Of a stretch of DNA of 64,000 nt, positions 44,823-64,000 are shown piece by piece (the first letter of the stretch is position 1; every line of letters starts with the position of its first letter). The stretch lies in the NCBI RefSeq assembly GCF_011758765.1, contig NZ_JAANOU010000001.1, forward strand, positions 3,968,001-4,032,000, given 5' to 3'. The notes under the pieces were generated by a model that searched no databases, had not been told where the DNA came from, and worked only from the letters and a program-made list of their open reading frames with translations. The stretch is from Amycolatopsis viridis (GTDB lineage: Bacteria > Actinomycetota > Actinomycetes > Mycobacteriales > Pseudonocardiaceae). The translations under genes and the position numbers were made by a program.

Positions 44823-45479
44823 CCGTTCACCGCCCCGATCTCGTCGTTCGCAGCTAGGACGCACCGACGCGCCCAGCCGTTCCCGCGGTACCTCGACAGA
44901 GTTACAGACTTCGCTTTGAAAACGCTTCGAAGGAGCGGGGTCGCTGCGCCGCTGGCCGGAATCAGTTCCAGGAGAAGGCGATCACTCCACGCACTGGGTG
45001 ACGAGCGATTACCCTGAGTGCTTGCGGGGGCAGTGGTCCACTGCGAGGTTACCGGGAGATGGCGGCCCTGGTGGCCGCACCGCGGAGCTGATGGCGCGGC
45101 GGTGCCGTGCGGACCGCACGCGGGCGGGCCGGCGGCGCGTTCACCGGTGGGCCAATGGTGCACCGCCGGCGGGCCGTGGTGCGATCGCGAGAGTGCCGGT
45201 GACGTGGCGCTGAACGGATTGCGCACCGTGGTCCAAGCCAGTGGTCTCCTGCCGTGGAGGGGCCGGTCGTGCGGCTCAGCACCAGTGGTCCAGTCATCGG
45301 CAGATGAGAGAACCGCTCGCGCACAAGGTGCAGGGCGCCACCGCACAACCACGTGATCACGGCCCCGCGGACAGGACGGGCACCTGGCGGTCACCGGATC
45401 CAGGACAGGCCCACCGGCGGACCCAGCTCCGCCGACGGGCCGGCAGGCATCGTGCCCTCGACCGGTCTCGGGCGGCCGC
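44823..45479. other. Gene-free stretch between the two SARP genes
   Basis: About 660 bases hold no convincing gene. It has a perfect 15-bp palindrome (45030-45044, GCAGTGG-T-CCACTGC) and GTGGTCCA in three places (45033, 45228, 45285), plus a near copy at about 45240. The segment just upstream of SARP 1 (44880-44950) is AT-richer and probably holds its promoter, although I cannot pick boxes with confidence. Confidence 0.5.
45030..45044. promoter_or_regulatory. 15-bp palindrome GCAGTGG-T-CCACTGC
   Basis: Seven-base perfect arms around one base, about 210 bp upstream of the first SARP gene and 435 bp downstream of the second. The GTGGTCCA half recurs at 45228 and 45285. It may be a regulator binding site; the binding protein is unknown. 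Confidence 0.35.
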
Positions 45480-48266: not shown

Positions 48267-48335
48267 CACCTTTCACACCGCACGGTCATCGCCGCGCCAC
48301 GGCTGGAGAAACAACCAGAAATCTGGCCGGGCGCG

Positions 48336-49223
48336 CTAGGGAGTCCCCCCATCGGATGACAGGTCCGCCACGATCAGATCGACCAGCTCGAGCACCGCAC
48401 GGCCGGTCAGGACCACCTCGGTGGCCGCCCCCGGGTTGAAGCAGAGGACGTGCCGTTCGTCCGGCCAGCGGATGAACAGGTTGAACATCAGATCGGTGGT
48501 GTGATGGTGGTCCTTGCCCATGACCTCCTCGCACATCGCCACCGACGAGAACGCGGTGATCACCGGGAGCTCGTCGGTACCGGCGAGCCGCCACGGCAGC
48601 GGCGGGATTCCAGGCCGGTCGTTGACCGGCACCGGTCCCGTCGTCGGGACCACCACCTCAGCGGGCACCAGAGCCTCCAGAAATGCCTTGTCGTCAGCGG
48701 TGGCGACAGCCTCCGCGAGTGCGTTCTCCAGCGTGTTGGACGGCGGCAGATCCGTCCGCGGTTCCCGCTCCCCCGCGAATTCGTCGAGCACCAGCAGCGG
48801 GACCAGCGTGCGCAGCTCGTCCTGCACCGCCTCCTGGAACACAGACGACGGCACGCTGGTCAGTTCACCCCCGGCCAGTTCCCTGACCGCCGGAACCGGC
48901 AGGTCCGCGCCGATCGGCAGACCCGGGTTGATGAGGAGCCGGTCGGCGTCCAGGTCGGCGAACGCGGCCCGGGTGTGCCCGCGCGCGTACGGCCCGAGGA
49001 ACCGGCCGAGTGCCTCGGCGGAGGTGAAGACCATCAGGTCCCGCTCACCCAGCCCGAGTGGACGCGTCACCTGCTCGTGTTCGGCCGTCCCGGGAGCGGG
49101 CAGGACCGGGACGTAGAAAGACCCGTCCAGAACCAGTTGGGCGTACCGCCGCGTGTCACCCGCGTCGATCGCCGCCTGCAGTGCGTGCTCCAAGTCATTG
49201 CTCGGCTGCCACGAAGGTTCCAC
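48336..49223 (-). CDS. SseB-like protein, paralogue 1
   Basis: 295 residues with two SseB-type alpha/beta modules. The first has ALQAAIDAGDTRRYAQLVLD, GSFYVPVLPAPG and LMVFTSAEALGRFL. The second has ALAEAVATADDKAFLEALVP and AEVVVPTTGPVP, ending RWPDERHVLCFNPGAATEVV. SseB-fold domains in actinomycetes often sit near type VII secretion genes, but their role there is not settled. It is divergent from the beta-helix/AAA+ gene (64 bp) and is a paralogue of the protein encoded at 51132-52058. GTG at 49223 after AAGGGC is the chosen start. Confidence 0.75.
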   Translation of the reverse strand: MEPSWQPSNDLEHALQAAIDAGDTRRYAQLVLDGSFYVPVLPAPGTAEHEQVTRPLGLGERDLMVFTSAEALGRFLGPYARGHTRAAFADLDADRLLINPGLPIGADLPVPAVRELAGGELTSVPSSVFQEAVQDELRTLVPLLVLDEFAGEREPRTDLPPSNTLENALAEAVATADDKAFLEALVPAEVVVPTTGPVPVNDRPGIPPLPWRLAGTDELPVITAFSSVAMCEEVMGKDHHHTTDLMFNLFIRWPDERHVLCFNPGAATEVVLTGRAVLELVDLIVADLSSDGGTP

Positions 49224-49287
49224 GCGCCCTTGCCTTTCTGCGGTACCTTTTGTCCAGCAGACCCTAGTCGTCCGAACCACGGAAGCC

Positions 49288-50970
49288 ATGCCACGCACCC
49301 TCTTCGTCGCCCCCGATCAGCGCGGCGCCCTGCCCACCATCCGCGACGCGCTCGAAGCCGCCGACGAGGGTTCGGTCATCTCGATCGCCCCGGGTGACTA
49401 CCCCGAGCCGATCACGATCACACGGCAGCACGTGACGCTGTCCGCCCGCGAAGCCGGCACCGTCACGATCAGCTCGCCGTTCCCGGACCAGCCGGTCGTG
49501 TCCGTCACCGACGCCCGCGTCGAGCTGATCGGGCTCACCTTCACCGCCGAGGAGCGCGCTGCCGTCCGCGTGCGCGGCGGTCAGGTGAAGATCGTGGAGT
49601 GCACGGCGACGGCCCGGTTCGCACCGGGGATCGACGTCGCGGGCGCACAGCAGATCGAGGTGCGCAACACCCACGTCACCGGTGGGCAGTACGGGATCGT
49701 CGTCGAGGAGTCCGACGGCGTCATCGACCGGTGCGAGATCCGCGAGATCGCGGACGACGGCCTGATCGTCCGGCTCGGTTCCCGGGTGAAGGTGCGGCAC
49801 TGCACCATCGCCGGGTGCGGGTTCCGCGGCGTGTACATGTACCAGGCCGGCGATTCCACGCTCGACCGGTGCGACATCTCCCAGACCGGCGACGCCGGGA
49901 TCGCCGTGGCCGACCAGAGCTCACCCACCATCAGCACCTGCTGGGTGCACGACACGCAGGGCGTGGGGATCAGCGTCGGCCGCGGGTGCGGCGGCGTGAT
50001 CGAGGACTGCCGGGTGGAGAACACCGCCGTGCCGGGCATCCACCTCGCCGACGGTGCCCGCACCGAGGTCCGCGAGGGCGACCCGTCCCGTGCCCAGGTG
50101 CCGGTGGGTGCGGTCGCGACCAGCGGCAACCACCAGGACCTGGACAGCGTCGACAAGCTGCTCGGCGAGCTGGACCGGATGATCGGGCTGCGCGGTGTCA
50201 AATCCGAGGTGCGCGGCCTGATCGACGAGATCCAGGTAAACGAATGGCGCCGCAGTGAGGGCCTGTCCGTCGGCACGGTCAGCAACCACCTGGTGTTCGC
50301 GGGCGCGCCCGGTACCGGTAAGACGACGGTGGCGCGGATCTACGGTCAGCTCCTCAAGGCGCTGGGGATCCTGCCGAACGGCCGGTTCAAGGAGGTGTCC
50401 CGGCGCGACCTGGTCGGCCAGTACATCGGGCACACCGCGGAAAAGGCCGCATCGGTGTTCGAGGAGGCGCGCGGTGGCGTCCTCTTCATCGACGAGGCGT
50501 ACACCCTGTCCCGCTCCAGCGGCAGCGGCGCCGACTTCGGTCAGGAAGCCATCGACACGCTGGTGAAACTGATGGAGGACCACCGTGACGAGGTCGCGGT
50601 GATCGTCGCCGGCTACACCGACGAGATGGGGAAGTTCCTCGACGCCAACCCCGGTCTCGCATCACGGTTCGGCAAGACGCTGGAGTTCGAGAACTACAGC
50701 CCCGAAGAGCTCGTCTCGATCAGCCTGCACATGACGCGCAACGACGACTACCTCCTCGGCGAGGACCTCGACCTGGCGCTGCTGGAGTGGTTCACGCAGA
50801 TGGAGCGCGACCAGAACTTCGGCAACGCGCGCGAGGCTCGCAAGCTGCTGGAGCGGATGCGCAAGGCCCAGTCCACGCGGCTGCGGTCGCTGGGTCACCG
50901 GCCCTCGCGGGACGACCTGCGCACGCTGACACTGGACGACCTGCTGGAGGCCGTGCGCGGCACCGGCTGA
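49288..50970 (+). CDS. Right-handed beta-helix / AAA+ ATPase fusion (EccA/CbxX-like)
   Basis: 560 residues. Residues 1-275 are a right-handed parallel beta-helix built of short repeats (VEVRNTHVTGGQYGIVVEES, DRCEIREIADDGLIVRLGS, RHCTIAGCGFRGVYMYQAGD, TLDRCDISQTGDAGIAV). Residues 300-555 are a CbxX/CfqX-type AAA+ domain with pore and nucleotide motifs: MIGLRGVKSEVRGLIDEIQV, Walker A FAGAPGTGKTTVARIYG (about 336-352), GQYIGHTAEKAASVFEEA, Walker B GGVLFIDEAYTL, sensor IVAGYTDEM and arginine finger PGLASRFGKTLEF. The AAA+ part is the type found in EccA of type VII secretion. Here the usual EccA TPR half is replaced by a beta-helix that could bind a protein or glycan client. Confidence 0.88.
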   Translation: MPRTLFVAPDQRGALPTIRDALEAADEGSVISIAPGDYPEPITITRQHVTLSAREAGTVTISSPFPDQPVVSVTDARVELIGLTFTAEERAAVRVRGGQVKIVECTATARFAPGIDVAGAQQIEVRNTHVTGGQYGIVVEESDGVIDRCEIREIADDGLIVRLGSRVKVRHCTIAGCGFRGVYMYQAGDSTLDRCDISQTGDAGIAVADQSSPTISTCWVHDTQGVGISVGRGCGGVIEDCRVENTAVPGIHLADGARTEVREGDPSRAQVPVGAVATSGNHQDLDSVDKLLGELDRMIGLRGVKSEVRGLIDEIQVNEWRRSEGLSVGTVSNHLVFAGAPGTGKTTVARIYGQLLKALGILPNGRFKEVSRRDLVGQYIGHTAEKAASVFEEARGGVLFIDEAYTLSRSSGSGADFGQEAIDTLVKLMEDHRDEVAVIVAGYTDEMGKFLDANPGLASRFGKTLEFENYSPEELVSISLHMTRNDDYLLGEDLDLALLEWFTQMERDQNFGNAREARKLLERMRKAQSTRLRSLGHRPSRDDLRTLTLDDLLEAVRGTG

Positions 50971-51017
50971 GCCGTCATGCCGGATGCGGCTACGTGCGCC
51001 ACCGGCATCACCGGGCC

Positions 51018-51042
51018 GGTGCACCTGCATTCCAGGTGCACC
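51018..51042. terminator. Bidirectional hairpin terminator
   Basis: GGTGCACCTG (51018-51027) and CAGGTGCACC (51033-51042) form a perfect 10-bp stem with a 5-base loop. It lies between the convergent AAA+ fusion gene (ends 50970) and the second SseB-like gene (ends 51132). Confidence 0.65.
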
Positions 51043-51131
51043 GCGCAGGCCGCCTCGATCGCCCGCGGAGAACTGTCGGCCGTGGGCGCGACCTCAGGGC
51101 TGGGCCCACGGCCGGCGTCCCGTGTGCGGCG

Positions 51132-52058
51132 TCAGGCCTCCGGCGCGTTGCTGTCGCCGGTCTGCCCGCTGATGAGACCACCGGCGGCCGAGGCTTCGGC
51201 GATCGCCGTCACCAGTTCCGGCACACTGCTGCCAGGCAGGGTCAGCTCGATGCTCGTGCCCGGGTTGAAGCACAGCACGTGGTCCTCGGTCGGCCAGTTC
51301 AGCAGAACGTCCAGAAAGGACACGGTGACACGGGGACCGTCGCCGGGGGCGACGGTGTCCAGCACCCGCTCGGAGCTGAACAACGGCACCACGGGTATTT
51401 CGTCGTCGCCGACAGTCCGCCAGGGGAAGCCGTCGTCCTCGATCAGCGAGGGGTCGCCGACCGGTTCGGTGACGGGCAGCACCACATCCGATCCGATCAG
51501 GGCGAGCAGGAACGCGTCGAAGTCCAGCTCGGTCACCGCCTCGCGCAGCCGCTCCTCCAGCTCGTTGGCCGGCTGGAGCGCGGCGACGGCCTCCGCATCG
51601 CCGCCCAGATCCGCCAGCGCCAGCCGGCGAACCTCGGACAGCACCTCGTCGACCATCGCGTTCTGGACCTCCTCGACCGGGAGCAGTTCCTGCCGACCCT
51701 CGGCCAGGTCCTCGACCTCCCCGAGCACCAGGTACACGCCGATCGGCGCGCCCGGGTTCACCACGAGCTGGGCATCGCCGGGATGGACCTCCTGCAGGGC
51801 AGCGATGCCGGTCTCCCGCCAGCTGTCCACCACCCCGCCGAGAGCCCAGTCCAGCGACTCCTCGGAGGTGAAGACGAGAACGTGGTTGCCCTCAGGCAAG
51901 GGCAGGCTCTGCGGCCACGGGCCGCCGGGCTCCGGCGCGGCCGGCACGTACAGCGGGGCCTCGCGCAGCAGCTGGGCGTAGCGCCGGCTGTCGCCCTCCT
52001 CCAGCGCGGCCAGCATGCCGGTCTCGACCTCGTTGGCCGGGCGCCACTGCAAGTCCAC
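51132..52058 (-). CDS. SseB-like protein, paralogue 2
   Basis: 308 residues, same two-module layout as the protein at 48336-49223. It begins DLQWRPANEVETGMLAALEE, with SRRYAQLLREAPLYVPAAPEP, HVLVFTSEESLDWAL, the second-module start ELEERLREAVTELDFDAFLL, and LNWPTEDHVLCFNPGTSIEL near the end. It is very acidic. It lies 135 bp downstream of the giant gene on the same strand, so the two may be co-transcribed. The role could be as partner, chaperone or immunity-like factor of the giant protein; this is inference only. GTG at 52058 aligns with the paralogue start. Confidence 0.75.
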   Translation of the reverse strand: MDLQWRPANEVETGMLAALEEGDSRRYAQLLREAPLYVPAAPEPGGPWPQSLPLPEGNHVLVFTSEESLDWALGGVVDSWRETGIAALQEVHPGDAQLVVNPGAPIGVYLVLGEVEDLAEGRQELLPVEEVQNAMVDEVLSEVRRLALADLGGDAEAVAALQPANELEERLREAVTELDFDAFLLALIGSDVVLPVTEPVGDPSLIEDDGFPWRTVGDDEIPVVPLFSSERVLDTVAPGDGPRVTVSFLDVLLNWPTEDHVLCFNPGTSIELTLPGSSVPELVTAIAEASAAGGLISGQTGDSNAPEA

Positions 52059-52193
52059 TCCAGACACTTCCTTCTGCTCGTCGCTCCGTCGTGTGACCTC
52101 GTCGGGTTCCACGGTAACCGGGGTGTGACCGGGCCGGCGGCCGGGTCGTGGTGACGCGTCTGCCGAACTCCCCGGAGGCAGCCGGCGTAACGG

Positions 52194-55100
52194 TCACTGG
52201 GAATCCACCGCAACCCCCTTCGCGAGTTCTCGGGGGACGCCCAACACCAGGGGATCGTCGGGGGAGAGCAGCTCTGCGAACTCCGCGATGGTCGGTTTGG
52301 TCGGCCACCCCGGGATGTCCAGCCGGACCTCGCCGTTCTCCCGGACCGGGGTCGCCGGGACGAAAACACCGTCCTGGACTGACGGCATCGAGGCCAACAT
52401 CGGCATCCGCGCGTCGGCGACTGCCGGCAGTAGCCGCTCCAGTGCTGCGACAACGCGGTCGGGCTCCGGGATCGTGAACTGCTCGACCGGCAGTCCGGAC
52501 ACCGCGGCCAGGACCCGCTGGACGTGGTCGGCGTCGCCGCGGCGATCCGCGGACATCAAGTCGCGGTTGATGAGCGCGTTCTCCACCGCCAGCATCCACC
52601 GCGGGGCGGTGACTTCGGACGGCAACAGGAACTCGTTCGGCACCGCGACCTCCTGGACTCGTCCCCCCACGTGCAGCCGGACCAGGTGATCCCCGGACTC
52701 CGGCAGCTCGGTGACGAGCTCGTCCCGGATGATCTGCGGTCGAGTGGCGGCCAGGGCACGCAGAACCTGGTAGGTCACGCCGGTCCGGGTGCCCCCGGGT
52801 TCGAGCCGGTGCGGATCGAGAGTCTCCATGAACGGCCGGTCGTCGGGGCGCCACGACCATCCGGCGGTGTCGACCCCATCCATGACGGGGCGGCGCACCC
52901 GCGGCCACGGGTTGGCCGGGTGGCGCGCGTCCCGCCGGGAGAACGCGGAATCCATCAGGTCACCGAACGCGCGATGCACGAGCACCATGCGTGTCTTGCC
53001 TGCGGAGTAGAAGAACTCGTGATCCTCCAGCAGGGCCAGCAACTGGGGCTTGTCCTGGTGGACGCGGATGAATTCGGCTCGCACCACGGCCCGGTCCTCG
53101 GCGAACCTGGTCGCGGGATTCGTGGCCGCGCTCAGCTCGATCTTCGGGACCTTGTGTTCCACGGCGGATGGCTGGAAGGAGGTCAGATCGGCCGCAGCAT
53201 AGTCCTCGCTGAGGCGCACCTCGCGCTTGCGCACGAGTGCGGCGAGTACCGGAGTCTGCCGGGCGAACGCGTGCAGTGCCTCGTCGGAGAAGGCGATCGG
53301 CGTACCCACCGACGTGACGTACCTGATGTCGGCGTGCCTGTCGGCCCCGGGCGCCAGGTCGGCGGGCACCAGCGCACCCGGGCCGCGGTCCCACTCCCGC
53401 GCCAGCGCCTGGTCGACGGCCAGCTCCGCGGGCAGATCCGGGTGCGCGTGCACCGCGCGGGCCTGGAACGTCTCGAACCCGCGCCGGAACAGGGCGAGAT
53501 CACCATCCACGTGCTGGTACCACGCAGTGAACTGACGGCGTGCCCGGGGATCGGCCAGGGCGTGGTAGGCGTCAGCCAGGTCGCCGAACCGGACAGGGTC
53601 CGGTTCGGTTGTGGCCAGGAGGACGGCTTGGTGCACCCACTGCTCCAGCTCGCGGTCATCCCCAGCAAGAACGTAGGCCGCCGTCGGCGGAAGCTGGCTG
53701 ATCCTGCTCGGTTTCGACTTCTCGGGAACGACCGGTTTCCTCTCACCGTCTGTGATCAAGACGATGCTGCCTGCATATTCTGGCGGGCGAGTACTCAGTT
53801 TTAGCCGATCCAGTCCTAGGTTGCTGGAATGTTCAGGGTCGCCGCTCACTTCGTGAGAGATCCAGTAGACGGTGCCCTGGTAATTCACCACGACAACCGC
53901 CGCGGGCCCCGCATTCCCGGTGTCCCGGAGCATCATTCCCATCGCACCCGGGGATTTGCGGACGGCATCCTTGACGATTTCCACGCGAACGCGCGAAACA
54001 CCGTCAACCTTGCGGAACCGAGCGCCGGTGATCTGCTCGACCCGGCCCGCTGCGCCCAGCTCGGCGCCGAACGGCTTGCCGTCGCGGATGCCCTTGGTAG
54101 CCGGCCTTGCCGGAAGCTTGGGCACGCCGTCGTGGATGATCGAGCGGAGCGCCAGGAACACCTCAAACGGCTCGACGCCCGGCCGATCCAGCAAGTGCAC
54201 GTACTTCTTCAGATCCTTTCCTGCGACGATCATCTCCGCCAGAGGGGCTACCTCCCGGTGGTCCGGCGCAACCAGACCATCCGGCTTGTCGTAATGCGCC
54301 CCGACCTCGGCGCTGGTGTCAGTCTCACCGCGGGTGGAGTCGAGCAACGCCGCCAGCTCCGGACGGCTGTCGCGGAGGTTGAGCAACTGGTCGGGCGTGA
54401 GCCGCTCGCCGTCGATCCGCTTCAGGACATGCTGAATCCGCTCCTGATCCGACACGCTGTCGGCGGGGTAGTGGGTCGGCAGCGCAGCTTCGGATGCGGG
54501 CACCAGGCTGCCCAGTTCGGCACGCCACTGCTCGGCCAGCAACGTGCTGGGCAGCTGGCCCAGCCAGGCGGCGGTGTGCTCCAGCCGTCGCACCGCTGCG
54601 GCGAACGCGTCCGGGCCCCGGGTGGTTTCGGCCAGCGCCCGCAGCTCGAGGCGTGCCGCACGATCCTTGGTGAGCGAGTAGTACAGGGACGCAACCTCCG
54701 ACGGGAAGTGCGACACCTCCTCGTTCGCCAGCTCCGCCGCCATGATGCGCTCGGCGAGCCGTTGCCAGTCCGCCCTTGTCCGGGGGCGTGGTGCACCCTC
54801 CGCCGAGGCGGTCGGCGCGTCAGTCACGGAGAGCGGCAGGGCGTCGAGATACGCCTTGGTGGGCGGCCGGGTGCTGATCTCGGACAGCGGGGCTCCCTTG
54901 ATCGGCACGGGTTTTCCATAGGATTCGTGCAGGAGGACGTCGATCGCGTACACGCCGTCGGTGTAGCCGTACAGCGGCCGGGAGGCGCTCCGTCCGAGGT
55001 GGATGAACAAGGGTTCCACGTTCGGCTGGATGGCCACACCGGTCACCACCGGCTCTTCGGCGACCCCGTGCAGCACAACGTAAGCGAAGCCGTAGTCCCG

Positions 55101-58100
55101 GTTGTTGAGGATTTCCGGAATCCGCTGGTAGGCAGCGTCGATCGCCCTGGCCTTTTCCTCCTCCGTTGCGTCCGGGTCATCGCGGAGGTCGACCAGCCGC
55201 TGGGCCCGCCCGCCCCGGTCCTCCAGCCGGGCCACGCTCTCGCGGCCGGTCGGCTTGTCCGGATCCCCGTCGGCGAACCCGTCGAACGTGCGACGCGCCG
55301 CCACGTCGGCGCCGTAGCCCAGCCAGTAGTCGTGGACGACCATCGCCGCGTCGGTCTCGGCGAGTGCCCCGGCGGGATCGCCGCTCCACGGCGCGAGCAC
55401 CCGCACGGCGCGCTCCAGGTCCGCCGTAGTGGGTGACAAGGTGTACGGCAGGACCTCGCGGGCGACAGCCCGTTGCGCTTGCGTGGGCGGCACCAGAGTG
55501 CCGCGCTCCCCGTACACCCGGCTCGCGCGCGCCGGCGGGAACATCTGCTCGTATTTGCCTGACCACCGCCACGGCACCGGCACCGGCTCGGTCTGCTGCG
55601 GTACGACGTTGTGTACCTGCCACACCGGCTCCGGAAGACTGCGCTGTTCCTCCGGGGACAGCGGCACGGGCAGGTCGCGCAACTGCTCTCGGGCGACGAT
55701 GTCGAGAGCATCATCCGGCTCCGATATCAATGCCAGCGTCAACGGCCGCAGGTGCGCTCGGGCGACCGCGTCGAAGTCCTTGACGTCGATCGCGATGTCC
55801 AGGGCCTGCTCGGCCAGTTCTCCGATGCGAGCGGTCTGGCCCGCGGCCCGGGCGTCAGCCTCCTGCACCGCCAGCAGGTCGAGGACGAGCAGCCGGGCGG
55901 CTGTCCGAGCGTCGACCATCGCCGGGTCTGGGCCGGGCAACTTTCCCGACCACAGCCGTTGCAGGACGTTCTGTTGTTGATTCCGCTCGTGCCGGATCCG
56001 GCCGATCTGCTCCGCCAGCACGCGAGCAGCCTCGTCGCGGGACGTGCCGGCGTCGAGGTGGAGGCGGACGGCCGTCTTCTTCGACCGTGGCGCCATCAGC
56101 GCAGGTCCGCTCCGCGTCCCGGCGTCGGTGTAGTCCACCGCCACCGGAGTGCGGTTTAGCTTGACCTGGTCGTCTTCAACGGTCAACTCCGGCACCACAC
56201 GCCGCAGTGTGTCGAACGCCGCCAACAGCTCCTTCCGGTCGGTCAGGAGCTGTTGATCAGCACCGTCCCCACTCTCAGCGGGGGCTGTGTCGTCCGCTCC
56301 AGCGGCACGATCGTCCAGCGGTTCCTGCGGGCCAGTGGTGTCGGAAACTCGATCGACAGCACCGTCCAGGCGGCCGGCGAAGTCACGGAGTCGGTCAACG
56401 TCGTCCCCGGTTCGATCGGCTACTCCCGTTCCCGCCTCATCACCCGGATCCTCCGGAACGTCGTCAGGTCGTCCATCTTCGTCACCTGGAACTGCGTCGT
56501 GAGCGTGTCCTTCCCCGTGGAACGGGAACGAGACGGCGTCGCCTTCGGGTGCCGGCAGCTGCTCCGGCTCCACCACCGGGGGACGGGACCGGCCGCCGTG
56601 CAGGCGGTCCACCGCCGCATCAGCGTTGGCCTCCGCGTTGCCCTCGAGCAGAGGCAGGAACGGTACGGCGTCGCCCTCAGGTGCCGGCAGCTGCTCCGGC
56701 TCCACCACCGGGGGACGGGACCGGCCGCCGTGCAGGCGGTCCACCGCCGCATCAGCGTTGGCCTCCGCGTTGCCCTCGAGCAGAGGCAGGAACGGTACGG
56801 CGTCGCCCTCAGGTGCCGGCAGCTGCTCCGGCTCCACCACCGGGGGACGGGACCGGCCGCCGTGCAGGCGGTCCACCGCCGCATCAGCGTTGGCCTCCGC
56901 GTTGCCCTCGAGCAGAGGCAGGAGGTTCTCCGTCGGCCGCACGCCCACGCGCAGCTGACCAACGTAGGCCACCTGGTGCCCGAGCACGCGGGCCAGCGTG
57001 TCCGCCGACTCGAACGCCTCGGGAGCCAGCCAGATCTCGTCCTCGGTGAACGTCGGTGTCAGTCCGAGCGCGTCCTCACTGCGCATCATCGCGAGAACCT
57101 CGGCGTCAGTGACCACCTTGATCCGGATGCCGGTGACGTCCAGTCCGGCCAGGACCGCTACATGGCGCGCGGTGGCCTCCGAGGCGTCGAGCGGCCCGGT
57201 CGGCAGGACCGGCGCAACCGGAGCCGGGGCGGACCGGCGGCGGAGGTGCGCCTCCAGCGCGTCGCGCACCTCCGATGCGGTGAAGGTCAGCCCGGTGCGC
57301 CATACCGCGTGCGCACGGTTGAGCTTGCCAGCCAGGTCCGCGGCCCTGGCGGTGTCGTCCTCGAAGATCCGGGCCGGGTCGTCGAACTCCTGGGCAGCCC
57401 GATCGGATTCCTCGATGGCGGTCGTGATCCGCAAGTACGCGCGGTACCGCGGCAGGTCGGTCTGCCACCCCGCGATAGCCTCCGGGTTGGTGCGGGTCAT
57501 CACCTCCTCCCAGCGCTGGAGGAGCCGGGCCTCGTCATCCGCGTTGTAGTCCATGAGCTCCAGGTGCGCGGCCAGACTTGCGACGGGGTCGCCGAAGAGC
57601 GCGTGTTCCCAGTTCCGGAACCGGGCACCGCCCTCGCGGACCAGGATGCTGCCGCGGTCGAGCTTCATGTGCAGCAAGCCGAACGGGCGCCGGGTGAGCC
57701 CGGGCCAGCTTGACCGCGCGGCCGTGAAGGGATCCTCGGGTATCCGGAACGCCTGCATCAGGTCACCGCGTTCCGCTCGGACATGCTCGTGCACCTGGTC
57801 CGCCCGGTCCGACAACTGGTGCGCGAAACGCGCGGTGTCACCGGACTCGGCCCAGCCCCCCGGCAGCGGCGGCAGGTCGTCCTCGGTGATCCGGGACGTC
57901 TCGGCGAACAGCTGCACGATGTCGTCGAGCACGTGGTCCGGCACGGGCTCGTGCTCGGCGAGGGGCCGGCCGTCCTCGGCGCTGTGCACCTGGTGGTTGC
58001 CCACCGACTGCCACACCAACGGGACGTTCGCGAGCTTGGACGGCGCGAACTGGCCGGGACGGAGGCGGGCGAGCAGGTCCGCCTCGTGCCAGATCCGGAT

Positions 58101-61100
58101 GTCCTGGTAGGACGCGCCCTCGACCGGAAGGCGGACGCCGACCCGCCCGAAGCGGGTGTCCACGTGCACGTCGCGGTAGTAGTGGCTCTCGGTGCCCGCC
58201 TGGTGACGTGCCAGCGCGATCACCGTCTTGGTCCACCGCTCGCGCGACTCCTGGTGTTCGGGGTCGCGGCGCGCAGGGTGGACCCCCTGCGCATCCATCT
58301 TCGCTTCCAGCTGCGCCAGCACGTCGGCGGCCTCGGCGCGGGAGAGCGCCGGCACCTCGGCGTCCCGCACGTACCGGTCGAGGTCGGCCCAGGTCCACTC
58401 CGCGGGAAGCCGGTCGGTGCGGATGCCGTGGCGCACGAACACCTCGGCAGGCGACTGCGCGTCACCGGCGAGGACGTCCCGCAGGACCTCGACCGTCTTG
58501 GGCGCGTACCACTGGGCCACCTCGGCGAACTCGATCAGGTCGAGCATCTGGCGGCGGCTGTACTTGGCGGTCTTCAGCGCGATGTACTGCGCCACCGCGT
58601 TGCGGTCCTCGGACATGACGGCGCCGTCGTAGGCGTAGCGCCACCGGAACTGCTCGCCCTGGAGGAACTCGCCGCGGCGGAACCAGCTGTTCAGGATCGT
58701 GTTGAAGATGGTCGACAACACGCCCGAGCCTCCTTGTTCGCCGATGGCAACCAAGTCCGGATCCGAGCTGATCAGCTCGGGCGTGGTCCGGCTCACGAAA
58801 CTGCCGCCGTTGCCCGGGCCGAGCTCGTCGAGCAGGAGGTTCAGCGCCCCGGGCACGCCGGTCGGCCCGTGGTGGTACACCGCCACGATACGGGCGATGC
58901 GGTCCAGCGCCTCCTCGGCGTTCTCTCCGATGACGAGGAAGTGCGAGTCGATCACATTGGCCACGACCCGGGTGGGCTCACCCGGGATCCCGGTGACGAA
59001 CCGGATGATCAGGTGCTGCCGGTGTGCACCCCGGATCTTGGCTCGCCATTCCTTCCAACCCGCCTTGCGGACCTTGTCGATGTGCAGCACGTACTCGCCG
59101 TTGCCGTACCGCAGCACCTTCGCCAGGTGCTTGACGCGCTGCACCAGCTCCCCGCTCTCCCGCATGCGCTCCATGTTTTCGAAAAGCGTTCCGGGCCGCG
59201 GGAGCTCAGGTCCCCGGCGAGCGAGGATTTCCCGGGCCTTCTCACCCAGCACCGGGTGGTCGGCGTACCGGGACAGCATCTCCCGCAGGTTCCGCTCCGC
59301 GTGGTGGATCCGGGTGGCCACGACCAGTGCCTGGTCGTCCATCGCCCGTGCGGTGGCCGCGGTGGGGCTGAGCTCCTTCTGGATCCGCGCCGAGATCCGC
59401 TGGACGTTGTTCTGCACCGTGATGATCCGCATGGAGCCGTCGAGCGTCTGCTGGCTCGCCTCCGTCACGGACTGGCCGGCCGCGACGATGTTGCCCTGCT
59501 GAACGCTGACCGCCGCGTTCACCGCCCCGCTGCCGACCGCTCTGCCGAACGCGGCCGCGGCCAGCTGGCGGACCTCCCGGCCGTGCAGGAACTGCTCGCG
59601 CTCGATCAGATCGTCGACGTGCCGGTGCACCCACATCCGGAGGTCGGCGGCGGGCAGCCGGCTTTCCTGACCGGCCCAGTGCTCCGGCAGCAGCGTGACG
59701 AACTCACGGACGTCGGTGTTACCACGCCGGTGCACCCCGAGGCGGGTGGACATCGGCGCGCCGGCGCCCGGAAGGTCGCTGACCCCGATCCGGATCCGCA
59801 GCTCGGCCGGCACCTTGGGGGTACGCAGCTGCGGCTCGGCCGTGATCCGCACGGTCAGCCCGTTACCCGCTTCCAGGGCGCGGGTGATCTCCTCGGGGGT
59901 GAACGCTTCGCCGTCGTCCTTGCGTTGCGCCACCGGTTTCGCGGCGGCTTCGGCTTCGTCGGCTTTCCGCTTCGCGACGGGCACCCGCTCCCGGGCCTCG
60001 CGCAGCGCCGCGGCCGCCTGGTCGGCCGCGGCGGTCTTCGCGGCGATCTCCTCCTCGGACGCACCGTCGGACCGGGCCTGCTCGAGCTCCGCGGCCGCCT
60101 TCCCGGCCTTGGCCTCGGCCGCCACCACCGCCTTGCGCGCGGCCTCGTGCTCGGCCTTCGCCCCTGCCGCGACGACCTCTTCCGCGGTGAGCAACCGTGC
60201 CGAAGCGATTCCCGGCCTGGTCACGGCCCGGGCCAGCATCTCGTCGGCCGCCTGGGTCACCAGCTGGGCGGGATCGCCGGGCACGGTCTCCGGAGCCGGC
60301 TGCGCGGGCAGGTGCCGCGCGATCTCCGCGGCGATCCCCTGGCTCACCCCGTCCGCGGCGCTCAGCAAGCTCAGCGACGTCCGCGCCATCGCGATCCGGT
60401 CCGTCGCGCCGATCAGCGCCTGGAAGCCCTGGCGTTTGCGGACCGCGTCCTCCCACAGCCGCCGGGCCAGCACGTTGTACTTGAAGTTCACGTAGCGCGA
60501 CGTCGTGAACCCCAGCCGCGACCCAGCACTGCTCATCACGAGCGGGGCGATCAACTCCAGGCTGCCGGCACTCATGTTGAACGCCACCGTGGCGGTGGCC
60601 TCGAGCGGCAGCGTGATGAAGTTTTCGGTCGCCAGCGCCTTCAGCGTCGGTTGGATCCACAACTGCGTGCCCTTGATGACCACATCCACGAGTTGCTTCC
60701 GGATCGTCGCGCGGACGGCGTCCTCCCCGGCGAGGAAGGCGTTCGGTGACACGCCGATCCAGTACCGCTGCTCGTTGGCGGGCACGCGACCGCCGGTGAG
60801 CTGCTGGTACGACCGCCCTTCCGACGTCACCAGGGACACCTTGAGGTTCTCCCCGGTGGGCAGCCTGAAGTGGAGGGTTCCGGAATCACGCACCACCTCG
60901 TCACCCGCGTCGTGCGCGGCGATCTGCTCGTCCGACCACGACACCTCCGTCAGCCCCTGCAACGTGGTGCGCAACGTGGCGTTGTGGATCAGCTCCTCGG
61001 GGAAGGTGCCCGCAACCAGCTCATCGGCCACCTCGGCACCGATCCGCTGGATCTGCTGCTGCAGCTCGTTCAACTGCTCGCCGGTGAGCGTGGCAACCGG

Positions 61101-64000
61101 CTCCGGCGGTGCGGTGTGCAGCACCTCGGTGTGCGTGAGCGCGGCCGGCGGCCGCAACGCCTGGGCGCTGTCGTGCCGACCCTGCTTCAGCGTGTCGGCG
61201 GTGTGGCCCATACCGTTCCGCATGATGAACGCCCGGAGGCGGCGCATCTCGTTGGCCGCCTCGATCTGCTTGCCCAGCGAGACGTAGAAAGCGGACGGCG
61301 CGACCATCCCGGTCCAGGCGTAGTAGGTCCCGCGGGCGGCGGCGTAGCTGGTGCTCACCCCCAGGCCGACGCCCATTGAGGTGAGGGTGCCGAGCGTGGC
61401 GCCGGCCGCGCTCAACGCCTGCACCAGCAGTGTGGTGCGGGCCTCCACCCCGAGCGTGGGCAGCTGCGAGCGGTACCCGGCCACCTGATCCCTCAGCAGC
61501 TTCTTCCGGTCCTTGTGCACCTCGGTGCGCTCGCCGTCCGGTCGCACCACCACGACCAGCTGTCCGCCGTCGACCCACTCCGTCGGCACCACGGCCGGCA
61601 TCGTCAGCGCCACGCCCTCGGTCGGGTCGGAACCGTGCTTGGCGATGAACGCGTCCAGATCCGCCTGGGTCCCGATCCGCACCCCGTGGTGCTCCTTGAT
61701 CCAGGCGGCCTTGGCGCGCAGGCGGAACTCCGCCGCCAGCGGGTGGTCGCCCGACTCGATCTGCGCCAGCGACGGCCCCACCCGGCCCTGCAGGGTGAAC
61801 CCGGCCCGGAACACCCGGCCACCGGGGATGCGGTCCGTTCCGGACACCCAGGTGACCTTGAGAATGTTGTAGAACGACGGTTCGGCCGCGGCGACCGCGT
61901 CCGGCGGTTCCTGCTTCTCGATCGGCGTGGTCAGCGCCGTGATCGGGAACTCGGTCGACTGCCGGATCTTGATGTAGTAGAGGCGGTCGTCCAGCACGCC
62001 CTTGCGGGACTTGTCCCCGAATCCGCCTTCGTCGTCTTCTTCGAGGAAGTAGGCGAACCCGGGCGCCGGGTGCTCCTCCGCCGTGCGCAGCTCGGCGAGC
62101 AGCATGAGACTCTCCGGATCGCGGACTCTCCCGGCGAAGTTCTCGTGCGTCAGTATGGCGTTCTCGAGCAACCGCGCCGGCTCGTCGCTGCCTGTGATGA
62201 TCTTGCTCAGCCCAAGACCGTGGTGTGTGGCCTCGGCGTCACCGCTGAACAGTGTCCGCAGGGCGTTCTCGACCCCGGCCAACTCGGCGGCCGCCTGTCG
62301 CACGGCCGGTTCGGGTGAGCCGAGCAGGTGGGCGAAGTCCTTCGCGCGTCGTCCCCTATACCCCGCTTCACGCAAGACCTCGAGGAGCCGCTCGCGCGCC
62401 TCGAGCAGACCCACCACCTGCTCGACGTTCGCGAGGTCGCGCTGGGTCAGGTCCGACAGCGCGAGGCCACCCTTCCGCAGCGGGTTCGCCCGGAACACAC
62501 GTGAGCCGTCGGTGGCTGGGTCGATGCCCTCCGCCGGCGCCGCGAGCCGCTGGAACTGCGCGTGGACCTCGTTCAGGGAGGTGGCTTCGCGCGTCAGCTC
62601 GGCCAGCGCCACCTCCAGTGGCCGGCGTAGTTCCTCCGCACGGCCCACGGCCCGCACGAGATCCCGCCGAGTGCTGTCGAGGTACTGCTCGGCGGTGGCC
62701 GACGTAGTGGGATCGCCGCCCACGTCCGGCAGGATCGGCGTGGTGCCGTTGGCGCGCGCCTCAGCTTCGGCGGCGTGGGCCTGTTCCGCCGTCTCGGTCC
62801 AGAGCGCGAGCCGGGTCAGCTGGAAGTTCACCTCGGCCAGCCGGGTCTGGTGGTCCGCCCAGCGAGCCGCGACCAGCTCGAGCGTCCCGGCGAGCCTCCG
62901 GTAGCGGTGTGTCAGCGCCACTTCGACCTGGCTTTCCCCGGTTTCGTGCCGCTCGATCGCTTCGGTCACCAGCTGGGCCAGTTCCTCGGCCCGCGGGCCG
63001 ATCGCCTGGAGCATGCCGGTCAGCGGCTCGGCCAGTTCCGCGGCCCGGGCGATGGTCGCCGGGTCGTCCGGGCTGCCCTCGATCCCGGCCAGGGCGGCCC
63101 AGCCGCGCTGGTAGGCGTCGGCGAGCTTGGCCAGTTCGCGAACCTTCGCATGAACGTGGCGGTCGCCGCTGAAATCGGCTTCCGGCACCTGGTCCGCGGT
63201 GTCCGGAGCGTGCTGCGGGTTGTCCAGCGCGGCCAGCTCGGCGGCGATGTCGAGCTGGGCGAATCCGTCGGTGACCGCGGCGCCGGGAATCTGCCCGGCG
63301 AGCCACGCCGCGAACGCAGGACCGTAGGCGTGCAGCGCAGCGGCGAGCCGTTCGGTGGCGCCCGCCGGGACGTCCCGGACCGCGTCGCCGCCGTGGAAGA
63401 ACCGGTCGAGCAGGTGCTGGACGGACCGGCGGAGCCGGACCTGGTCGGCCTGCGGCAGCCGCTGGATCTCGGCGTGTACCGGCCGGGTGAAGTCGCTGTC
63501 GGAACCGGGCAGCAGCGCGGCCGCCCGCACGCCGTCCGGCAGGCTGTGGAAGGCGTCGCCGAGCACCACCGGCTCGGCTTCGGCGAACTCACGGCGTTGC
63601 GGCCCGGTCACCAGGTGGTCGCCGAGCACGAGGAGCGCGGCGACCTCGCGCAGCCGCAGCAGGTCCGAAGTGGACAGATCAGTTCCGATTCCTGCGCGCT
63701 CCAGCCACGAGGTGAACGCGTCCACCTCGCCAGGACCGAACCCGAACCACGGCGCGGCGTCGGACAGCGACCGCGGGGCGGGGATGTACGAAGGCGCTGC
63801 CAGCGCAGCTTGCAAGCCCTGCCCCAGATCGCCGTCCCAGCGTTCGGCGAGCCCCTCGAGGTAGGTGGTGCCGTGGACCGCCGCGACCTGCACCGCCTGG
63901 GGCAGGTACTTGCCGATCCGCTCGTGCAGGGCGGGCAGATCGACCTGGTGGGTGAGCAGGAGGTAGGCGTTGTCCTCCCAGGCCACGGCCGCGTGCAGCG
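52194..64000 (-). CDS. Giant cysteine-free multidomain protein (5' end beyond window)
   Basis: At least 3,930 residues are visible and the frame is open to the right edge, so the true N terminus is missing. Positions here count from a GTG at 63986. I find no cysteine in the visible sequence. Landmarks: helical N-terminal third; hydrophobic stretches at about 845-905 and 1120-1155; an Ala/Glu/Lys coiled coil at about 1265-1365; a kinase/aminoglycoside-phosphotransferase-like region at about 1950-2220 with altered catalytic residues (H2106 in HMKLD, then FRNWEH); a zinc-protease-like helix GHQVAY at 2337-2341 lacking the Glu; three 44-residue repeats at about 2353-2484; an acidic disordered linker after them; and several unassigned alpha/beta regions to the C terminus. 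Size and context recall giant actinomycete proteins thought to be type VII effectors, but the WXG100-like N terminus that would show this is outside the window. Confidence 0.85.
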   Translation of the reverse strand, partial: LHAAVAWEDNAYLLLTHQVDLPALHERIGKYLPQAVQVAAVHGTTYLEGLAERWDGDLGQGLQAALAAPSYIPAPRSLSDAAPWFGFGPGEVDAFTSWLERAGIGTDLSTSDLLRLREVAALLVLGDHLVTGPQRREFAEAEPVVLGDAFHSLPDGVRAAALLPGSDSDFTRPVHAEIQRLPQADQVRLRRSVQHLLDRFFHGGDAVRDVPAGATERLAAALHAYGPAFAAWLAGQIPGAAVTDGFAQLDIAAELAALDNPQHAPDTADQVPEADFSGDRHVHAKVRELAKLADAYQRGWAALAGIEGSPDDPATIARAAELAEPLTGMLQAIGPRAEELAQLVTEAIERHETGESQVEVALTHRYRRLAGTLELVAARWADHQTRLAEVNFQLTRLALWTETAEQAHAAEAEARANGTTPILPDVGGDPTTSATAEQYLDSTRRDLVRAVGRAEELRRPLEVALAELTREATSLNEVHAQFQRLAAPAEGIDPATDGSRVFRANPLRKGGLALSDLTQRDLANVEQVVGLLEARERLLEVLREAGYRGRRAKDFAHLLGSPEPAVRQAAAELAGVENALRTLFSGDAEATHHGLGLSKIITGSDEPARLLENAILTHENFAGRVRDPESLMLLAELRTAEEHPAPGFAYFLEEDDEGGFGDKSRKGVLDDRLYYIKIRQSTEFPITALTTPIEKQEPPDAVAAAEPSFYNILKVTWVSGTDRIPGGRVFRAGFTLQGRVGPSLAQIESGDHPLAAEFRLRAKAAWIKEHHGVRIGTQADLDAFIAKHGSDPTEGVALTMPAVVPTEWVDGGQLVVVVRPDGERTEVHKDRKKLLRDQVAGYRSQLPTLGVEARTTLLVQALSAAGATLGTLTSMGVGLGVSTSYAAARGTYYAWTGMVAPSAFYVSLGKQIEAANEMRRLRAFIMRNGMGHTADTLKQGRHDSAQALRPPAALTHTEVLHTAPPEPVATLTGEQLNELQQQIQRIGAEVADELVAGTFPEELIHNATLRTTLQGLTEVSWSDEQIAAHDAGDEVVRDSGTLHFRLPTGENLKVSLVTSEGRSYQQLTGGRVPANEQRYWIGVSPNAFLAGEDAVRATIRKQLVDVVIKGTQLWIQPTLKALATENFITLPLEATATVAFNMSAGSLELIAPLVMSSAGSRLGFTTSRYVNFKYNVLARRLWEDAVRKRQGFQALIGATDRIAMARTSLSLLSAADGVSQGIAAEIARHLPAQPAPETVPGDPAQLVTQAADEMLARAVTRPGIASARLLTAEEVVAAGAKAEHEAARKAVVAAEAKAGKAAAELEQARSDGASEEEIAAKTAAADQAAAALREARERVPVAKRKADEAEAAAKPVAQRKDDGEAFTPEEITRALEAGNGLTVRITAEPQLRTPKVPAELRIRIGVSDLPGAGAPMSTRLGVHRRGNTDVREFVTLLPEHWAGQESRLPAADLRMWVHRHVDDLIEREQFLHGREVRQLAAAAFGRAVGSGAVNAAVSVQQGNIVAAGQSVTEASQQTLDGSMRIITVQNNVQRISARIQKELSPTAATARAMDDQALVVATRIHHAERNLREMLSRYADHPVLGEKAREILARRGPELPRPGTLFENMERMRESGELVQRVKHLAKVLRYGNGEYVLHIDKVRKAGWKEWRAKIRGAHRQHLIIRFVTGIPGEPTRVVANVIDSHFLVIGENAEEALDRIARIVAVYHHGPTGVPGALNLLLDELGPGNGGSFVSRTTPELISSDPDLVAIGEQGGSGVLSTIFNTILNSWFRRGEFLQGEQFRWRYAYDGAVMSEDRNAVAQYIALKTAKYSRRQMLDLIEFAEVAQWYAPKTVEVLRDVLAGDAQSPAEVFVRHGIRTDRLPAEWTWADLDRYVRDAEVPALSRAEAADVLAQLEAKMDAQGVHPARRDPEHQESRERWTKTVIALARHQAGTESHYYRDVHVDTRFGRVGVRLPVEGASYQDIRIWHEADLLARLRPGQFAPSKLANVPLVWQSVGNHQVHSAEDGRPLAEHEPVPDHVLDDIVQLFAETSRITEDDLPPLPGGWAESGDTARFAHQLSDRADQVHEHVRAERGDLMQAFRIPEDPFTAARSSWPGLTRRPFGLLHMKLDRGSILVREGGARFRNWEHALFGDPVASLAAHLELMDYNADDEARLLQRWEEVMTRTNPEAIAGWQTDLPRYRAYLRITTAIEESDRAAQEFDDPARIFEDDTARAADLAGKLNRAHAVWRTGLTFTASEVRDALEAHLRRRSAPAPVAPVLPTGPLDASEATARHVAVLAGLDVTGIRIKVVTDAEVLAMMRSEDALGLTPTFTEDEIWLAPEAFESADTLARVLGHQVAYVGQLRVGVRPTENLLPLLEGNAEANADAAVDRLHGGRSRPPVVEPEQLPAPEGDAVPFLPLLEGNAEANADAAVDRLHGGRSRPPVVEPEQLPAPEGDAVPFLPLLEGNAEANADAAVDRLHGGRSRPPVVEPEQLPAPEGDAVSFPFHGEGHAHDAVPGDEDGRPDDVPEDPGDEAGTGVADRTGDDVDRLRDFAGRLDGAVDRVSDTTGPQEPLDDRAAGADDTAPAESGDGADQQLLTDRKELLAAFDTLRRVVPELTVEDDQVKLNRTPVAVDYTDAGTRSGPALMAPRSKKTAVRLHLDAGTSRDEAARVLAEQIGRIRHERNQQQNVLQRLWSGKLPGPDPAMVDARTAARLLVLDLLAVQEADARAAGQTARIGELAEQALDIAIDVKDFDAVARAHLRPLTLALISEPDDALDIVAREQLRDLPVPLSPEEQRSLPEPVWQVHNVVPQQTEPVPVPWRWSGKYEQMFPPARASRVYGERGTLVPPTQAQRAVAREVLPYTLSPTTADLERAVRVLAPWSGDPAGALAETDAAMVVHDYWLGYGADVAARRTFDGFADGDPDKPTGRESVARLEDRGGRAQRLVDLRDDPDATEEEKARAIDAAYQRIPEILNNRDYGFAYVVLHGVAEEPVVTGVAIQPNVEPLFIHLGRSASRPLYGYTDGVYAIDVLLHESYGKPVPIKGAPLSEISTRPPTKAYLDALPLSVTDAPTASAEGAPRPRTRADWQRLAERIMAAELANEEVSHFPSEVASLYYSLTKDRAARLELRALAETTRGPDAFAAAVRRLEHTAAWLGQLPSTLLAEQWRAELGSLVPASEAALPTHYPADSVSDQERIQHVLKRIDGERLTPDQLLNLRDSRPELAALLDSTRGETDTSAEVGAHYDKPDGLVAPDHREVAPLAEMIVAGKDLKKYVHLLDRPGVEPFEVFLALRSIIHDGVPKLPARPATKGIRDGKPFGAELGAAGRVEQITGARFRKVDGVSRVRVEIVKDAVRKSPGAMGMMLRDTGNAGPAAVVVVNYQGTVYWISHEVSGDPEHSSNLGLDRLKLSTRPPEYAGSIVLITDGERKPVVPEKSKPSRISQLPPTAAYVLAGDDRELEQWVHQAVLLATTEPDPVRFGDLADAYHALADPRARRQFTAWYQHVDGDLALFRRGFETFQARAVHAHPDLPAELAVDQALAREWDRGPGALVPADLAPGADRHADIRYVTSVGTPIAFSDEALHAFARQTPVLAALVRKREVRLSEDYAAADLTSFQPSAVEHKVPKIELSAATNPATRFAEDRAVVRAEFIRVHQDKPQLLALLEDHEFFYSAGKTRMVLVHRAFGDLMDSAFSRRDARHPANPWPRVRRPVMDGVDTAGWSWRPDDRPFMETLDPHRLEPGGTRTGVTYQVLRALAATRPQIIRDELVTELPESGDHLVRLHVGGRVQEVAVPNEFLLPSEVTAPRWMLAVENALINRDLMSADRRGDADHVQRVLAAVSGLPVEQFTIPEPDRVVAALERLLPAVADARMPMLASMPSVQDGVFVPATPVRENGEVRLDIPGWPTKPTIAEFAELLSPDDPLVLGVPRELAKGVAVDSQ
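56533..56928 (-). repeat. Triplicated 132-bp in-frame repeat inside the giant gene
   Basis: Three head-to-tail copies start at 56533, 56665 and 56797 with an exact 132-bp period (44 codons). The second and third copies look identical and the first differs at about two bases. Each encodes PLLEGNAEANADAAVDRLHG followed by a Pro-rich VVEPEQLPAPEGDAV segment. The near identity, including silent positions, means a recent duplication or ongoing gene conversion. Confidence 0.92.

Follow-up and report, generated by a model that had tools for sequence, protein, structure and literature searches.

A type VII secretion locus of Amycolatopsis viridis with a beta-helix/AAA+ ATPase and a giant protein devoid of cysteine

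Type VII secretion systems (T7SS) are generally regarded as exporting small helical pairs in folded form, and mycobacterial EccA carries a TPR region. Bacterial proteins larger than those reported here are known from Omnitrophota. CpnT, which we take to be a T7SS polymorphic toxin of the WXG100_2 type (PF25547), belongs to one of the known classes closest to our giant proteins: both have an N-terminal WXG100_2 domain and a T7SS neighbourhood, and relatives of our giants carry EndoU (P0005, A. thermoflava, where the precomputed Pfam list gives WXG100_2 + EndoU) or a YwqJ-deaminase (a 6,327-aa protein of G354). The giants differ from CpnT-type toxins in their length (9.8-29.7 kaa in 12 of 13, with one of 3.8 kaa), in their internally repeated modules, in their near lack of cysteine, and in having AAA+ and SseB-like partners. 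Actinobacterial giant multi-toxin proteins, likewise from Actinobacteria, exceed 10,000 aa and combine several toxin- or protease-like domains in each chain (PMC3482391, 2012). They carry lethal-factor-like, caspase, ART, OTU and MCF1-SHE domains, a difference drawn from the published description rather than from sequence, and the accessible part of that paper makes no mention, for its Streptomyces giants, of a beta-helix AAA+/SseB module or of cysteine loss. The ATPases of the EccA/SpoVK-CbbX clade are presented as dedicated chaperones, with N-terminal domains that might serve in substrate recruitment, in an excerpt that also names a beta-helix in EccA (PMC10659427); the accessible part of another paper calls the function of EccA unknown (PMC11217815). 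As far as these partial texts go, multi-toxin giants of Actinobacteria and EccA proteins with a beta-helix have thus both been noted before. Among the open-access PMC matches listed (title and start of abstract, with few subscription papers or preprints), there was no description of the linked module or of the cysteine purge reported below.

We analysed a 64,000-base stretch of the A. viridis genome (hereafter the window; bases 3,968,001-4,032,000 of a single 5,684,261-base contig), in which an initial annotation had singled out four adjacent genes: two SseB-like paralogues flanking a beta-helix/AAA+ fusion, with a giant gene beside them. Profile scores agree with this arrangement (Table 1). 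The open frame of the first SseB-like gene (48336-49298, minus strand) matches PF07179 (SseB) at 50.0 bits (E = 4.1e-13; cut-off 21). Both SseB-like proteins are matched by PF07179, the SseB N-terminal domain, and by NF033532, the NCBIfam model 'type VII secretion system-associated protein'; they differ from the latter in scoring below its cut-off of 85 (29.6 bits for SseB1, 42.8 for SseB2) and in being paired around a beta-helix AAA+ gene. A comparison of SseB2 with PDB sequences gave weak, unlikely matches only, the best (E = 0.0082) being a piece of myosin. The fusion scores 104.9 bits for Beta_helix, 69.9 for AAA and 58.7 for AAA_lid_6. In NCBIfam it is matched by SpoVK (261 bits) and EccA (253 bits; equivalog cut-off 466.65), both below their equivalog cut-offs, and the EccA model aligns with the AAA+ part only. 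The fusion shares its AAA+ core and, as shown below, its T7SS linkage with the EccA/SpoVK-CbbX chaperones, and is set apart from mycobacterial EccA by a beta-helix in place of the TPR region. The starts of SseB1 and of the fusion were judged by eye from homologues; with these starts the two genes do not overlap, and they would form a divergent pair.

Table 1. Features of the locus, in window numbering; genes beyond position 64000 lie outside the window
Feature	Position	Strand	Remarks
SseB-like gene 1 (SseB1)	48336..49223	-	Frame open to 49298; start 49223 taken from homologues
Beta-helix/AAA+ fusion (bhAAA)	49288..50970	+	EccA/SpoVK/CbbX clade, N-terminal right-handed beta-helix; frame open from 49153; start 49288 (MPRTLF...) taken from homologues
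Beta-helix domain of fusion	49627..50073	+	PF13229, residues 159-307
AAA+ core and lid of fusion	50293..50943	+	PF00004, residues 381-513; PF17866, residues 540-597
SseB-like gene 2 (SseB2)	51132..52112	-	PF07179, 53.3 bits (cut-off 21); 81 bases downstream of giant, same strand
Giant gene, C-terminal 40% inside window	52194..64000	-	Whole gene 52194..81698
Remnant papain-fold glutamine-deamidase-like domain	53859..54110	-	Without Cys nucleophile; PF15644 E 0.036, 15.6 bits, below cut-off 24.1
Degenerate zincin motif LGHQVAYVGQ	56955..56984	-	HExxH at same site in relatives
Small gene	81727-82125	-	28 bases from giant
YbaB-like gene	82122-82544	-	Its end overlaps start of small gene by 4 bases
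Mycosin-type gene	82511-83890	+	Call based on G003 orthologue
WXG100 gene	83995-84285	-	28.1 bits (cut-off 27.3)
Small gene beside WXG100	84306-84671	-	
eccB	84808-86208	-	TIGR03919, 285.5 bits, above cut-off
eccD	86227-87678	-	TIGR03920, 196.7 bits, above cut-off
eccC	87748-91701	+	TIGR03924 (EccCa) 965 bits, TIGR03925 (EccCb) 901 bits, above cut-off
Two further genes (393 aa, 693 aa)	after eccC, to 94989	+	

The window takes in the left part of a T7SS locus. The initial annotation had guessed at a link to secretion and had named eccB, eccC, eccD, mycP and esx as the genes to look for further to the right; just past the giant gene we found eccB, eccC, eccD, a WXG100 gene and a mycosin-type gene. 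EccC contains three FtsK_SpoIIIE stretches, and together with EccB and EccD it gives the locus components expected of a T7SSa (ESX) system. A pair of WXG100 proteins would also be expected there; the one identified scores 25.2 bits against the NCBIfam model, below the cut-off of 44.85, and the small gene next to it has no family match in Pfam or NCBIfam. The G003 orthologue of the mycosin-type gene matches Peptidase_S8 above cut-off (90.5 bits) and TIGR03921 below it (249 bits, E = 7.5e-74; cut-off 278.75); the first 163 aa of the window genome's own gene, the only part scored, gave 15.5 bits (cut-off 21.8). EccE was not recognised at the locus, where a candidate (95177-96535, minus strand) is without a match in Pfam or NCBIfam; EccE is reported, in the accessible part of one paper, to be absent from some ESX-4 variants (PMC11217815). 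Since the YbaB-like gene overlaps the small gene by 4 bases, and gaps of 28 and 81 bases separate the small gene from the giant and the giant from SseB2, the giant is probably co-transcribed with the two small upstream genes and the downstream SseB-like gene.

The giant gene runs on for 17.7 kb beyond the window and comprises 9,834 codons without an internal stop (minus strand, 81698 to 52194). It had been called cysteine-free on the 3,934 residues encoded inside the window; the count is still zero across all 9,834 codons. A WXG100-like N terminus had also been proposed as a feature to look for, and extension to the right revealed a WXG100_2 match of 29.9 bits (cut-off 27); the remaining focal giants can be aligned with the window's at their N termini. 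Six relatives were tested with the same model: G014 (51.9 bits) and G354 (83.8) score above the cut-off, G432 (25.9), G012 (23.5) and G015 (19.6) below it, and G048 gave no match. Homologue searches restricted by a protein length window returned P0004 and P0005 for residues 1-1500, P0004 only for residues 3900-5300, and nothing for the C terminus among 1,727 candidates. A domain search of the window's giant for NRPS/PKS domains found none, and we reject that identity. Motifs that we take to be kinase-like were applied to residues 2000-2700; the strict pattern occurred solely in the window's own giant, and we do not claim a kinase. Directly after the degenerate zincin motif, a 44-residue unit is present in three near-identical tandem copies (window 56526-56921, minus strand).

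Whether the four genes stay together elsewhere had been left as a check; they recur jointly in other genomes of the genus and the family. Across 61 genomes (the window's own and 60 relatives), the fusion (at least 70% identity) and SseB2 (E <= 1.2e-44) are found in the same 14, and two more genomes have weak SseB2 matches without the fusion. From joined loci we obtained 13 giants, of 3,776 (G015), 9,834 (window), 11,620, 12,146, 12,535, 13,214, 14,703, 17,638, 18,651, 19,259, 22,602, 27,216 and 29,662 aa; these lengths derive partly from draft assemblies, and the longest is from G009, a genome with a listed contamination of 7. Twelve other genomes thus have both the open frame and homologous modules; in one of them the frame is short (3,776 aa). 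The SseB1-fusion-SseB2-giant block is complete on one contig at 11 of the 13 loci; G432 has a BamB/PQQ-repeat gene at the position expected for SseB2, and the block of G009 is split across two contigs. G005, the fourteenth genome, is fragmented and, unlike the others, has 27 kb between its SseB2-like gene and the fusion (G005:C193, L059, L060). Not included in the 13 are G014 (at least 29,510 aa, 9 Cys), G048 (10,929 aa, 7 Cys), P0004 and P0005 (no Cys in either), the G005 fragments (one piece of 1,096 aa, no Cys), and shorter WXG100_2-type or large proteins of G354, G009b, G033 and G391. A contig scan for the central domain of the giants identified 8 loci, all in Amycolatopsis (A. tucumanensis, A. 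deserti, A. thermalba, A. taiwanensis and A. rhizosphaerae). The fusion is not specific to giants, since it is also present at T7SS loci with no giant in the 20 kb fetched (e.g. G605, G581, G368), and G036 has the fusion and an SseB-like gene with no giant within the 50 kb read.

At E <= 1e-110, the fusion is present in 48 of 298 genomes of the order. In a phylum-wide sample it was found in 1 of 296 genomes, the window's own, in a shallow first look that scored four candidates per genome. The best explanation is that this T7SS subtype occurs in the order of the window's organism. For 56 of 66 fusion genes, the contig also carries a listed EccC gene, in every case within 90 kb and in 43 within 25 kb, in a count into which not all weak EccC matches were entered; the remaining 10 lie on contigs without an EccC match, which we read as assembly fragmentation. 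Domain scores and EccC linkage together mark the fusion as a CbxX/SpoVK-clade AAA+ protein of T7SS loci. In a tree of 30 EccC sequences chosen from 17 genomes, 16 bhAAA-linked and 4 unlinked sequences fall on one side of a branch with support 100/99, and 10 unlinked sequences fall on the other. Linkage to bhAAA therefore seems to characterise a single T7SS lineage, in parts of which it has been lost or has gone unseen. Distant beta-helix/AAA+ proteins are also encoded by plasmids (37 records, of which 35 are from Streptomyces), with 36-43% identity in the best 20 (H1-H20).

The lack of cysteine extends to the giants of the other genomes. Together, the 13 giants, the window's included, have 12 cysteines in 212,856 residues, where about 1,499 would be expected from neighbouring genes and about 672 at the rate of EccC; the neighbour rate, 0.70% (766/108,803), comes from a simple gene-calling script with starts untrimmed. 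For the window's giant, about 69 are expected at the neighbour rate and none is observed, and its gene has no in-frame TGC or TGT codon, with 521 and 187 such triplets in the other two frames. We conclude that neither chance nor base composition accounts for the missing cysteines. The machinery retains them: EccC has 46 in 14,560 residues and bhAAA 109 in 6,816, and EccB, EccD, mycosin and the SseB-like proteins are likewise not cysteine-free. Within the same T7SS gene set (starts untrimmed throughout), the WXG protein (0/1,046) and the 693-aa protein (3/6,660) are nearly cysteine-free; not every small gene of the locus is (18/1,311 for a 121-aa protein, 12/3,594 for the 393-aa protein). T7SS-linked WXG100_2 proteins of 1.8-6.3 kaa have few cysteines, not zero (3 in G033, 2 in G391, 5 in G009b, 5 in G354).

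The cysteines that do remain in two giants outside the set of 13 are placed in a particular way. In G014, the frame (G014:C58:17393-105923; L095-L100) is still open where its contig ends and lies beside eccC, eccD and eccB, with no fusion gene seen in the stretch read. Six of its cysteines belong to an N-C motif, which in three cases coincides with the start of a PF15644 (papain-fold glutamine-deamidase) match; the other three belong to a similar G-C or A-C motif. The giant of G048, which lies beside a fusion gene, has six of its seven in the N-C of PF15644 matches. Since most of them sit at or near the papain-fold nucleophile, cysteine in these two proteins would seem to be tolerated almost solely as a nucleophile. 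No cysteine is present in the six PF15644-like stretches examined from the focal clade, and its 12 leftover cysteines, looked at in G012, G432, G001, G011, G013 and G009, are not at papain-fold sites.

Several modules of the giants resemble enzymes or toxins. Residues 4098-4609 of the window's giant are amidohydrolase-like: D61.H63.H65, H345, H391 and D457 do not vary across an alignment of 11 copies, which took in the window's genome but not G432, G009 or the second copy from G012, and HxH...H...H...D is what we take to be the metal-ligand pattern of the amidohydrolase superfamily. This part has no match among PDB sequences or in Pfam; its predicted model (pLDDT 56) gave a best Foldseek E of 0.14, and the eight best hits are presumably amidohydrolase-type enzymes. 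The zincin-like site reads HExxH in G001, G003, G011, G013, G002, G017 (two copies) and G012, and in 6 of 8 copies in G432, and is broken in the window's giant (HQVAY) and in G010 (HGLAR). HExxH alone is a weak sign (39 occurrences in the 13 giants, with about 9 expected by chance), and we therefore rely on the conserved site. PF15644 is matched above cut-off in G001, G011 and G012, and below it in G003 and the window's giant. A 27,216-aa giant, that of G012 (A. taiwanensis), has a SecA-like motor inside it (SecA_DEAD 73.8 bits, P-loop 46.3 bits; L034:35-2917, plus strand).

The C-terminal tips vary among relatives, being an EAK domain, a zincin or others. A 230-aa domain with the signature FDxVYxDGxGxYVIVEAKG...GGYEQG, invariant in the five proteins, is the last domain of the G001, G003, G011, G002 and G017 giants; in P0004 it is followed by a zincin tip, and in G010 and G013 a degenerate EAK domain lies ahead of such a tip. 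This domain has no credible match in Pfam (best E 0.1), none in NCBIfam (searched with one giant), and only matches of E >= 0.22 among PDB sequences. By its motifs it is nuclease-like, resembling Tox-REase-5, for which the signature 'Y, FDG, EAK, Y, Q,W' is tabled in the accessible part of PMC3482391. The window's giant ends before the EAK tip and so is without the variable C-terminal toxin domain that is a feature of polymorphic toxins; because its zincin site is broken as well, its own toxicity is doubtful.

We compared the rates of evolution of genes at the locus. For the giant, dN/dS is 0.44 in the comparison with G003 and 0.52 in that with G001; the G003 comparison gives 0.10 for EccC, 0.11 for the fusion, 0.21 for EccB and 0.31 for SseB2. 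These values suggest that the giant is constrained and yet evolving fast, as effectors often are.

Taking together the gene content, the recurrent synteny, the WXG100-like N terminus, the cysteine depletion and the domain signatures, we think it likely that this T7SS subtype exports toxin-like proteins of megadalton size from which cysteine has been purged, and that an EccA-type beta-helix ATPase loads them. The giant would be a dedicated multi-domain cargo of the T7SS, led by its WXG100-like export domain, and the beta-helix/AAA+ ATPase would be the EccA-equivalent of the subtype, most likely binding the giant via the beta-helix and holding it unfolded or remodelling it. EccC would then pull the giant through an EccB/C/D pore, and the SseB-like proteins would most likely assist the giant in the cytosol, as chaperones or adaptors. 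Under such a scheme, the chain would have to remain free of disulphides both while waiting for export and during its threading into an oxidising space, which may be why cysteine was purged. The giants would be effectors of interbacterial or environmental conflict whose toxin-like modules act outside or in other cells; the window's copy, having lost its C-terminal warhead, may be a carrier or partly disarmed. We put forward more tentatively, and with some doubt, a broader proposition: that chains of 1-3 MDa are threaded by a beta-helix EccA-type ATPase, that this route selects almost absolutely against every cysteine except catalytic nucleophiles, and that cysteine loss could therefore be read as a signature of T7SS threading.

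We considered whether the giants could be exported by the T7SS and yet be structural, adhesive or nutrient-capturing outside the cell, their toxin-like modules being domesticated, inactive scaffolds. The HQVAY and HGLAR sequences at the zincin site of the window's copy and of G010, the EAK tip that is missing from the former and degenerate in G010 and G013, and the absence of a nucleophile from the six focal-clade papain-fold stretches examined are all consistent with such a role, and a cysteine-free composition would fit surface proteins. Inactive scaffolds would not, however, be expected to keep HExxH at the same site in G001, G003, G011, G013, G002 and G017, an unvarying C-terminal EAK signature in five giants, and amidohydrolase-like ligands in 11 of 11 aligned copies, the window's genome included; hence, we regard this explanation as unlikely. 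Decay could also be confined to the window's giant, which would then be a disarmed or degenerating version of an effector that still works in sister species. It is the shortest of the 13 apart from G015, it stops before the tip seen in G001, G003, G011, G002 and G017, and its HExxH is broken. Nevertheless, 9,834 codons remain open, dN/dS against G003 is below 1 (0.44), the amidohydrolase ligands are intact and the partner genes have all been kept, so that we see decay as possible without favouring it.

Large actinobacterial genes frequently encode cytosolic NRPS/PKS enzymes, which raises the possibility of a cytosolic protein that merely adjoins a T7SS by chance. Huge bacterial proteins in general are likewise often NRPS/PKS, according to the accessible part of one survey (PMC11573180). 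The window's giant has no NRPS/PKS domain, its WXG100_2 N terminus and constant synteny argue for a connection with the T7SS, and its cysteine profile is like that of the WXG and 693-aa neighbours and unlike that of the machinery; a chance neighbour is therefore very improbable. The initial annotation had cast an SseB-like protein as chaperone or as immunity-like partner. SseB2 does follow immediately on the part of the giant gene that encodes the C-terminal end, where an immunity gene would usually be found, and the SseB-like genes might thus protect against the giant's toxin domains. However, SseB2 does not vary with the tip: it is retained in the window's genome without a tip and in G010 and G013 with a zincin tip instead. 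SseB-like genes are also present at bhAAA-T7SS loci with no giant in the 20 kb fetched (G605, G581, G368, and G363, whose stretch ends inside a large frame). Immunity thus strikes us as improbable, and we favour the chaperone or adaptor role.

If cargo of 10,000-30,000 residues is real, it bears on whether a T7SS can thread unfolded giants and on what the EccA-type ATPase does, and it raises the question of how a single chain of at least a million daltons passes through a narrow pore. The cysteine purge offers a sequence test for the export route.

Other genes in the window were recorded in passing. Directly to the left of the module are two large SARP/BTAD regulators with NB-ARC and TPR parts (41562-44864 and 45480-48269, both minus strand), which might control it. 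A fused class II aldolase/short-chain dehydrogenase (14003-16039, minus strand) probably belongs to ordinary sugar catabolism. A P-type cation ATPase of 1,372 aa with a long N-terminal half (23778-27896, minus strand) lies in the region of highest G+C content in the window (0.77-0.78).
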